DNA from: Natrarchaeobaculum sulfurireducens
GTDB lineage: Archaea > Halobacteriota > Halobacteria > Halobacteriales > Natrialbaceae
Assembly: GCF_003430825.1 (NCBI RefSeq)
Contig: NZ_CP024046.1
Coordinates: forward strand, 1 to 64,000
Length of the DNA: 64,000 bases
Direction: 5' to 3'
Part shown: in pieces, positions 6,465 through 17,321 of the stretch
Layout of the letters: each line of letters starts with the position of its first letter
How positions within the stretch are numbered: the stretch's first letter is position 1
Notes under the pieces: model-generated
Told to the model about the DNA's origin: nothing
Seen by the model: the letters and a program-made list of their open reading frames with translations, nothing else
Database searches by the model: none
Made by a program: the position numbers and the translations under genes

Positions 6465-9400
6465 CTATCGACGACTGCTCGAGTGTCGCGCTAACAGCCC
6501 AATAGCGAGCAGCAATCCAACGAGTGCAACCTGGCTTCCGAATCCAGGAACACCGTCAGCGTCCTCGGCTATCTCCGGTTGATCGTCGGCATCGACCGGT
6601 GTGTCATCACTGGCATCAGCGGCGTCTTCGCCATCCGCGGGCACCTCTTCGCCAATGGTGTCATCGTCATCCGTGGGCACCTCTTCGTCGGCGTCATCGT
6701 CATCCGTGGGAACCTCTTCGTCGGCGTCATCGTCAGTTGCGGACGTATCGTCATCGGCAGGTGCAGATGGAGCGCCTCCACCACCGCCACCGCCACCACC
6801 GCCACCACCGCTCGAGGGAGAGCCTACCTCGAAGGACAAGTCCTCGGTTGCTTCGTTACCCGCTTGGTCGCTAATCGACAGCCATACGTCGTAGGTGGCC
6901 CCGTCCTCGACGGAAAGTGTGTGTTCGATCGCCGAGGAGGTGATCGAAGTGTTGTCGTCGTCAGTGCGGTCGACGCCGTCGATCTTGAGGCGGACGGAAC
7001 TCACGTCGACCCCGGAGTAGCGGTCGTCGTACTCGAGGCGGATGTCGACAACTTCGGTTCCGGCCGCGATTTCTTGCCCGTCAACGGGTGTTTCGGCCGT
7101 TATTTCCGGCGGCTCAGTGTCGGGGACGAACAGACCGTACGTCGAGAATCCGGTAACGGAGCTAGTCAAGAACGGGTCGTTCCCGTCGTACTCGATAGCC
7201 GTGTCGGTAATTGGATCAACGGTCCAGCTTTCACTTGCGTCGTCGTAATACTGCAACTCGACGTCGTCGGCCGACGCACCGTCAGGAAGTTCGGTCTCGT
7301 CGATTGCCATCGTGATTTCAGCGCTCTCGATGGTACCGTCCTCGAGATAGTAATCGAGCAGAGAATCTAGGTCTCCGGTGATGAAGTTGACGCCGATATC
7401 ACCCTCCCCAAGGTTCGCGTTGGCGGTCGTCTCCGAGAGTGAGACGAACAGGTCCTGGGTGAGCACTGCCTCGTCGGCTTCGTCTGCAACGTCAAACTCG
7501 ATGCTCGTGCCAGTGTCCTCGAGTTCGATGACGCCATCCCCGAGGGTAAACCGGGTGTCGACGGTCGCCGAGGCGGTGTCCGTTCCCGTGCTTCCGGCAC
7601 GGTCGGTCCCATCGCTCGTGATCTCGTAGGTTCCCGTCTCGCCGGTGGCGAACGAGCCCGTGAAGTGTGTGTCGCTGCCGCCGACAGCGATCATTGCGAC
7701 CGAGTCGCTCGTCGTCGATCCGTCCGGCGCGGTGAACACGCCCTCCACTTCGGGCGGCTCCACGAGCGGTTGGTCGCTCTCGACGACGACCGTCGCGCTC
7801 TCACCGTCGACGTCCTCAAGCGTCGCCGTCAGCCGGGGCGCGTCGCGGTCGATGACGAGGGGGGTCTCGGCGTTCGCCGAACCCGCGGTCCCGACCTCGT
7901 CGACGGCGACGACCGACACCTCGTAGCGTCCATCGTCCTCGATATCGTCGAACGGAACCGACAAGGTCCACGTGTCGCCGTCCTCGTGGGTCGCCTCGAA
8001 CGCGCGGACGTAGGTCGTTTCAAGCGAACTCAACAACACGTTCACGGTCTCCAACTCGAGGTCGGCGTCGATGTCGACGGAGACGGTCGCGTCGTCGCTC
8101 GCGTAGGTCAACACGGTGTCACTGTCGGGGTCGAAGGCCTCGCTGTAGCCGTCGACCTCGACCGCCGAAAGCTCGACGATCGGTTCGTTGACCTCGACAG
8201 TGCCGGCGTCCCGGTCACCCAGAGCGAGGTCGTAGGTGCCGGGCTCTTCGAGGGCGAAGCTGACGTTGATCCCGCCGAAGAGATAATTTCCGGGCCTCAC
8301 GGTCACTTCCTGACTCGCCACGACCTCGCTCTCACCCGTGTCGGTGTTGGTGGCAGTCATCTCGACCGTTTCGGGCCCCTCGATAGTGCCTCTTTGATAA
8401 ACGCTCCCGACGACGTACATCTCCTCGCCTTCGACCATCTCCACCCTGGAGTTGGAGGCCTGGATGACGGTGATGTCCGATTCGGCGGGTTCAACCTCGA
8501 CGGTACCAGCACTTCTGTCACCTAACTCGAGGTCGTAGGTACCGGGCTCCTCAAGGACGAAGCTGACGTTGATCCCGCCGAAATGGTAAAACTCGGGCCT
8601 CACGGTCACTTCCTGACTCGCCACCACCTCGCTCTCACCTGTGTCTGTGTTGGTGGCGGTGAGTTCGACCGTTTCGGGCCCCTCAATATTCCCTCTTTGA
8701 TAGAGGCTTCCGACGACGTACATCTCCTCGCCCTCGACCATCTCCACCCTGGAGTTGGAGGCCTGGATGACGGTGATATCGGATTCGGCGGCCTCGACTT
8801 CGAGAGTGCCGGCATTTCTGTCACCTAACTCGAGGTCGTAGGTACCAGCCTTCTCTGGAGTGTATGAAATGTTGAGCCCACCAAAGACATAATTCCCGGG
8901 CTGCACCGTCACTTCCTGACTGCCGAGGACCGCTGTTTCGTTGGTTTCGGTGTTCGTCGCGGTGAGTTCGATCTCCTCGGTCTTCGCGGCGGTGCCGTTC
9001 TGGTAGATGCTGCCGACGACGTAGCTCTCCTCGCCTTCGACGAGTTCCAGACCTCCGGCCGAGGCCGCAACCACGGTGATGTCGGTGATCGCATCCTCGA
9101 CGGCGACCAGTCCGGCGTCCCGTTCACCCAAGGAGAGGTCGTAAGTTCCCGCCTCGTCGAACTCGGCGGTGATGTTGATCGCGCCAAGGTGGGTGTTTCC
9201 AGCTCCGAGGGTTACCTCTTGGCTTCCGAGCAGCTCGGTCTCGTTGGTTTCGGTGTTCGTTGCGGTGAGTTCGATCTCCTCGGTTCCCTCGTCATCACCC
9301 TGGTTTTGTATCGACCCGACGATATACAACTCCTCATCCTCTATTACTTCGACTTCGGACGCGGAGGCGGCGATGACTCGGATGTCAGCCTCGCTGGGTT

Positions 9401-17321: not shown

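Follow-up and report, generated by a model that had tools for sequence, protein, structure and literature searches.

What use a haloarchaeon has for a single gene of 3,618 codons, in which a propeller, a beta-helix, a repeat array and a membrane anchor are joined, is the question raised by the window analysed here (64,000 nucleotides, the start of contig C2). Our preferred answer, with a probability of roughly 0.6, is that the encoded giant is a signal-regulated, archaeosortase-anchored fibre for adhesion or glycan binding. A first-pass annotation, made from the letters of the same DNA, had described a single surface protein of 3,618 residues at 6465-17321. The frame is exactly as given there and is unbroken from the ATG at 17321 to the stop at 6465; the strand, absent from that annotation, is minus. 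The frame stays open further upstream, to a GTG at 17585, and the signal peptide starts at the ATG at 17321.

Contig C2 has 166,472 bases and belongs to a genome of 3.79 Mb in three contigs; the largest has 3,521,804 bases, leaving about 101,047 for the third. Plasmids of 101 and 166 kb are described for strain AArc1 in the species paper of Natrarchaeobaculum sulfurireducens. Since the sizes agree and pAArc-Mg-01, a plasmid of the sister strain AArc-Mg of the same species, matches the window at 99.9% identity, the replicon is almost certainly plasmid pAArc1-02 of N. sulfurireducens AArc1. The same plasmid carries a gene fusion of malic enzyme with a domain of phosphotransacetylase type (2045-4300), which adjoins orc1/cdc6, and a frame that resembles, by eye, a plasmid-borne TATA-binding protein paralogue (51808-52395).

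An assembly error fusing separate genes, named in the first-pass annotation as something that would overturn the single-gene reading, was looked for and is excluded: colinear, unbroken homologues of 3,468-4,273 aa are present in other assemblies, so the gene is not a chimaera. Upstream of it lies an integrase-like gene with a weak Phage_integrase match (20279-21562). The idea that the giant is a mobile cassette of this integrase was rejected: the only kin of the integrase in the fetched loci adjoins one other giant of the family (locus L032), and the integrase is therefore no regular companion of the giants.

Table 1. Positions in the window of the parts of the giant, of the linked signalling genes and of the break found in strain AArc-Mg
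Feature	Position	Strand	Basis
Putative signal peptide, residues 1-44	17190..17321	-	inspection by eye; homologue N-termini alike
PQQ-like (BamB-type) beta-propeller, residues 45-405	16107..17189	-	PQQ_2 1.4e-28; eight W-containing blade motifs
Three beta-sandwich domains, residues 406-725, characteristic of type-A heads	15147..16106	-	AlphaFold2 model; homologue identity 58-78%
Right-handed beta-helix (NosD/Beta_helix), residues 726-1445	12987..15146	-	profile matches, AlphaFold2 model, fold search
Four CarboxypepD_reg-like beta-sandwiches, residues 1471-1835	11817..12911	-	CarboxypepD_reg 3e-38, 4 stretches (Pfam)
Untyped domain, residues 1836-1950	11472..11816	-	kept in type-A homologues
Two Big_2 domains, residues 1951-2145	10887..11471	-	Pfam E 0.0013, 19.1 bits, below the cut-off of 22.8
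CARDB and CARDB-like domains, residues 2146-2341	10299..10886	-	CARDB 8e-10 (Pfam); constant half of the family begins
Array of seven REP repeats, each of exactly 101 aa, residues 2342-3048	8178..10298	-	repeat analysis
Central pair of divergent repeats, R4-R5, residues 2645-2846	8784..9389	-	repeat identities
Conserved Ig-like C-terminal module, residues 3049-3500	6822..8177	-	homologue alignment, AlphaFold2 model
Glycine run and acidic stalk, residues 3501-3587	6561..6821	-	sequence composition
PGF-CTERM anchor, residues 3588-3618	6468..6560	-	Pfam, genome-wide profile search
REG, HxlR-REC-HalX transcription regulator	17738..18553	-	upstream of the giant, same strand
RRHK, REC and histidine-kinase-like protein	18696..19817	+	divergent to REG; H-box His replaced by Gln
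7TM-PAS-PAS histidine kinase	4364..6406	-	58 bases past the 3' end of the giant
Interruption of the gene in AArc-Mg	14499..14576		99.9% identity stops at 14498 and resumes at 14576 elsewhere on the plasmid, inverted

The domains that had been read from the sequence are borne out by profile searches (Table 1). The propeller, the regulatory beta-sandwiches and CARDB are recognised by Pfam, Big_2 is matched weakly, the long helix is matched by Beta_helix (1e-43) and NosD (2.5e-40), and the anchor comes after a glycine run and an acidic stalk (residues about 3503-3587). For the three sandwiches at residues 406-725 the Pfam search gives no family. The names of these families invite functions that were considered and discarded. 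A quinoprotein dehydrogenase is rejected because the vicinal Cys pair over PQQ is absent, the sole Cys of the giant being residue 30, within the signal peptide; the propeller has a PQQ-like fold only. The giant is not a NosD maturation protein of nitrous oxide reductase (TIGR04247, 112.7 bits against a cut-off of 300), and on this cut-off test alone a copper or nitrous-oxide role was set aside. Neither is it the outer-membrane assembly factor BamB (TIGR03300, 74.8 against 285.2).

That the giant is a surface protein, as had been proposed, is supported by both of its ends. A putative signal peptide is plain to the eye at the N-terminus, and the homologues begin in a similar way. The C-terminus consists of a PGF motif, a hydrophobic stretch and a basic tail; it scores 25.6 bits with PF18204 (PGF-CTERM) in the genome search, against a cut-off of 18.8, and is borderline in whole-protein scans (18.0 bits in Pfam; 19.0 with TIGR04126, against 24.5). 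An archaeosortase A is encoded in the same genome (TIGR04125, 324 bits). The composition (22% Asp+Glu, 2.8% Lys+Arg, 37 N-X-S/T sequons, a mature chain free of Cys) points the same way, and on these sequence features it is close to certain that the giant is anchored on the cell surface.

The giant belongs to a family in which the stalk is constant and the heads differ, a point on which the first-pass annotation was silent, as it was on the signalling genes and the array rule described below. Over the C-terminal half, from the CARDB-like domains through the REP array, the Ig-like module and the acidic stalk to PGF-CTERM, 28 giants align end to end at 45-68% identity; giants with REP repeats number 27 and occur in 24 of 392 genomes. 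The head of the window protein, called type A here, consists of the propeller, the three sandwiches and the helix, usually with CarboxypepD_reg domains. It had been suggested that propeller and helix together are unusual in one haloarchaeal protein, and this is indeed so: the complete head is known from nine genomes, namely that of the window, G002, G010, G021, G202, G239, G168, G399 (Natrialbaceae archaeon Tc-Br11_E2g1) and Halorubrum sp. JWXQ-INN 858. The remaining heads have helices only, another propeller arrangement, CarboxypepD_reg alone, or almost nothing. In a tree of the Ig-like module the type-A heads fall in three separate clades; forcing them into one lowers the log-likelihood by 388 and is rejected (p-AU 1e-61). 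Because type-A heads occupy three C-terminal clades, heads and stalks, as judged from this tree, have been exchanged between lineages. Separate from the giants themselves, a 1,674-aa multi-propeller protein with a PGF-like anchor is encoded near the helix-type giant of genome G008 (loci L036 and L091), and a similar one near the giant of G035 (L033 and L096).

The constant half contains an array with an arithmetic of its own. The seven recent repeats announced for the window are seven in number; recent applies to repeats 1, 2, 3, 6 and 7, which share 80-90% of their DNA, and not to repeats 4 and 5, which share 58-70% with the rest. By these identities the array is composed of five young repeats and two old ones. 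With a profile that gives true repeats at least 70 bits (nearly all above 110) and background below 30, copies were counted in 32 clean arrays, two others that are interrupted by sequence gaps being excluded. Sixteen arrays have 11 copies, thirteen have 9, one has 7 (the window) and two have 8, so that 30 of 32 have 7, 9 or 11; on the tree, the copy number shifted at least 11 times, mostly by two. The least typical interior pair stands at the centre (positions (N+1)/2 and next) in 29 arrays and is off by one in the other three. Since the central-left repeats have ends like those of the last repeat of an array, the whole resembles a sub-array of n+1 copies joined to one of n.

Several simpler accounts of the array were discarded. 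Alternating repeat types (ABAB) do not explain the parity, because identity does not alternate with distance and dips at the array centre. The central pair is not one conserved special domain: the likeness of central-left repeats across proteins is 0.568, against 0.567 to ordinary repeats, and central-right repeats are slightly more alike (0.608 against 0.580). A search of a phage collection gave no match to the repeat array, and a phage origin was dropped. Draft assemblies may miscount repeats, and random miscounts would not favour odd numbers. Structural balance, either as a hairpin or as antiparallel pairing of stalks, would explain the odd, centred arrays; a recombination bias is the alternative cause. 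We know of no rule of odd repeat number with a central divergent pair for other extender arrays. If the cause is structural, the scarcity of even counts and the divergent centre point to a rule of fibre architecture.

In AArc-Mg the gene is naturally broken. Window positions 4365-14498 correspond to 5490-15623 of the AArc-Mg plasmid, and 14576-19817, including REG and RRHK, to 77825-83066, inverted; a TnpB-family gene (AArc-Mg 83072-84328) adjoins one break. Two TnpB-like frames are also seen by eye in the window, at 40966-42240 and 49100-50347. The break falls within the helix and, since the leftover C-terminal frame is devoid of a signal peptide, AArc-Mg probably makes no complete fibre. With the intact gene absent there, the giant is dispensable in that strain.

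These observations bear on the first competing explanation, according to which the giant is a structural part of the coat, either in a sheath or as an auxiliary of the S-layer. Its repeats would pack against those of its neighbours, its head would have no specific ligand, and the signalling genes would adapt the coat to envelope stress, pH or salt. The acidic, sequon-rich, Ig-rich and PGF-CTERM-anchored make-up also suits haloarchaeal coat proteins, the symmetrical arrays suggest ordered packing, and many soda-lake haloarchaea are among the named carriers in the matches listed. However, sporadic presence in 24 of 392 genomes fits a core coat protein badly, and so do the swapped heads and the natural break of AArc-Mg. 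We hold this explanation possible and on balance unlikely.

Structure prediction for separate domains, proposed earlier as a check, gave two confident, beta-rich AlphaFold2 models. Residues 406-1475 (pLDDT 82) form three sandwiches and a long right-handed helix, and residues 2746-3500 (pLDDT 88) are beta-sandwiches throughout. The top Foldseek matches of the first model are PL6 alginate lyases and GH87 glucanases, with the adhesin PfbA lower, at rank 29. The second model matches stacked Ig-type proteins, with macroglobulins and complement proteins heading the list and two extender repeats of adhesins, 4p99 and 6xi3, lower in it (ranks 40 and 46); for the stalk, a profile search found no PDB homologue. 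Because each model spans several domains, its TM-scores to individual PDB entries are low. By profile, the helix is nearest to NosD and to mannuronan C5-epimerases, the NosD-type non-enzymatic helices being the best matches. The earlier suggestion of an adhesin or polysaccharide-binding fibre is the one that best fits a helix like those of PL6, GH87 and PfbA on an extender-like stalk. As predicted models, they support a binding head on an extender and fall short of proof, since the likeness of an Ig-like or helix fold is not a demonstration of adhesion.

The same matches could speak for an enzyme, that is, for a head displayed on the cell that degrades or modifies polysaccharides with a catalytic beta-helix (of the PL6, GH87 or mannuronan epimerase kind) and is induced by the signalling genes when substrate is present. 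PL6 and GH87 lead the fold list, and the epimerase profile matches agree with it. However, PL6 lyases use Lys and Arg, whereas these residues make up only 2.8% of the giant, no CAZyme family appears in the Pfam or NCBIfam scans, and in sequence the helix is closest to non-enzymatic ones of NosD type. The names of some carriers, or reports on them, tell of polysaccharide use (for instance Natronoglomus mannanivorans, among the matches listed; PMC10963439), whereas the growth substrates reported for AArc1 are short-chain fatty acids and formate (PMC6176080). We therefore consider a catalytic head improbable.

The genes next to the giant are signalling genes. HxlR-REC-HalX response regulators and histidine kinases with an N-terminal REC domain are known in haloarchaea (PMC5847659), and REG and RRHK have these architectures. 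Among REG homologues HxlR is found in 18/18, HalX in 14/18 and Response_reg in 8/18; REG of the window scores HxlR only and retains the Asp and Lys of the REC domain, which 53 and 57, respectively, of 61 homologues share. Unlike the kinases described in PMC5847659, RRHK of the clade of the window is devoid of the H-box His. This residue is retained in 30 of 59 homologues; in a large clade around the window Q, T, K, R, S or E takes its place. In the window itself the motif reads VRQDIRND. Because Gln replaces His, autophosphorylation of the window RRHK at this position appears unlikely, and the protein may serve instead as phosphatase, acceptor or scaffold; the REC domain of RRHK is canonical in all 58 homologues compared.

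At nearly all of about 60 REG loci examined RRHK lies within 10 kb, mostly with no giant. Since the pair is found at dozens of loci of this kind, REG and RRHK are a wider haloarchaeal pair and not dedicated to giants. A REG gene lies within 11 kb of 16 of the 27 REP giants, the chance expectation being about 1% for each, and 11 of these giants are directly downstream of it on the same strand; the other 11 of the 27 have no REG nearby. Close orthologues of the 7TM kinase (at least 63% identity, the next match being at 50%, a threshold chosen after the gap was seen) occur in 16 genomes, all of which have a REP giant (hypergeometric p 7e-23, or 3e-12 within the family if at least 79 family genomes are in the sample). 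These p-values are optimistic and overstate independence, because the genomes are related and the threshold was set after the gap was seen. The kinase lies within 3 kb of the giant in 11 of the 16 cases, and 8 of the 24 genomes with REP giants have no close kinase. The linkage of the giants to signalling genes is statistically clear.

The REG and RRHK genes have other neighbours elsewhere. In other haloarchaeal families (loci L110, L115, L116, L119 and L124) they flank a histidine kinase of about 1,470-1,970 aa and not a giant; the one scanned, that of L115, is a multi-PAS/GAF protein. In genome G014 (L142:3301-13848) a helix-rich giant of 3,515 aa with no REP repeats is downstream of REG. The REG linkage may thus reach further giant families.

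A further explanation, to which we give little weight, makes the giant an outside sensor for the 7TM kinase: the head would bind a ligand, the stalk would pass the signal on to the membrane, and the kinase would read the fibre instead of controlling it. The close kinase always occurs together with a REP giant, even when the genes are apart, and is better conserved (65-83%) than the giant. However, the PGF-CTERM segment is expected to be cleaved and replaced by a lipid, so that no transmembrane link would exist, and the close kinase is missing from one third (8/24) of the carrier genomes. Antagonism, the third function offered in the first-pass annotation, which would make of the giant a contact-dependent toxin or an effector that is secreted, can hardly be upheld, since it has in its favour only the large size and the distal head, whereas the Pfam scan shows no effector domain, the C-terminus is an anchor, the neighbours are regulators with no candidate immunity gene among them, and there is no VirB4-type ATPase such as SPEARE proteins have.

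Several known systems resemble the proposed fibre in part. Large bacterial adhesins (MpAFP, 4p99; 6xi3) combine tandem beta-sandwich extenders of about 100 aa per repeat with a distal binding head, as proposed here; their likeness to the giant is one of fold, and their secretion and retention differ. PfbA (4mr0), a pneumococcal beta-helix adhesin, is likewise a surface protein with a helix head and is alike in fold only. Haloarchaeal NosD-type PGF-CTERM proteins share with the giant the helix family, the sandwich domains and the anchor, and annotated relatives are named right-handed parallel beta-helix repeat-containing protein. In contrast, the helix of the giant follows a propeller within a head that is carried by a REP/Ig stalk, and the signalling set adjoins the gene. 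SPEARE and related nanohaloarchaeal giant surface proteins (8,880-9,409 aa; PMC10266531) are similar by description in their signal peptide (judged by eye in the giant), N-terminal PQQ-like propellers, long Ig-like arrays, acidity, membrane anchor and proposed cell binding. However, they possess a VirB4/TraG-like ATPase domain and an adjacent secretion ATPase gene, neither of which was found here (the Pfam scan of the giant gives no ATPase family), whereas the giant is distinguished by its NosD-type helix, PGF-CTERM, the REP repeats and the signalling genes next to it.

Four of the elements have been described before, each on its own: giant proteins of archaeal surfaces that are rich in Ig domains, helices of NosD type, anchoring through PGF-CTERM, and regulators of HxlR-REC-HalX architecture (PMC10266531, PMC5847659). 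In the open-licence literature searched we found no description of the family, its signalling linkage, the swapping of heads or the arrays with odd counts and a divergent centre, nor of the REG/RRHK pairing at about 60 loci; an earlier account elsewhere is possible.

The fibre that we prefer would work as follows. The signal peptide would export the giant, and archaeosortase A would trim it at the PGF-CTERM motif and anchor it to lipid. Together with the Ig-like module and the Gly/Asp stalk, the REP beta-sandwiches would form a long extender holding the head (eight-bladed propeller, three sandwiches and long beta-helix) off the membrane. The head would bind a target, most likely a polysaccharide or another cell's glycoprotein coat. 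Since heads are swapped between lineages on a constant stalk, the result would be an attachment fibre with modular specificity. The 7TM-PAS kinase would sense a membrane or envelope signal, RRHK, its phospho-acceptor His being lost in the window, may serve as relay or scaffold, and the HxlR-REC-HalX regulator would act at the promoter of the giant. Binding, ligand, direction of regulation and all the biochemistry are what we infer from the arrangement of domains and genes, and attachment as the function is to us rather probable. A bolder version would make of it a new class of fibre with swappable heads, an n+1/n stalk kept in balance by folding back as a hairpin or by antiparallel pairing with a stalk on a neighbouring cell, and a 7TM kinase dedicated to controlling or reading the fibre; this we regard as speculative and doubtful.

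Many haloarchaeal giant surface proteins have no assigned use, and this family is one in which a use can be tested. Because the genes of a sensor and a regulator adjoin that of the giant, its putative attachment role becomes testable. Three handles are available: the constant stalk with swapped heads, which permits a direct comparison of specificity; the signalling set, which would predict when the fibre is produced; and the near-identical sister strains AArc1 (intact) and AArc-Mg (split), which are a natural comparison. The HalX domain is functionally undocumented (PMC5847659), and the linkage to giants offers a candidate output for HxlR-REC-HalX regulators.
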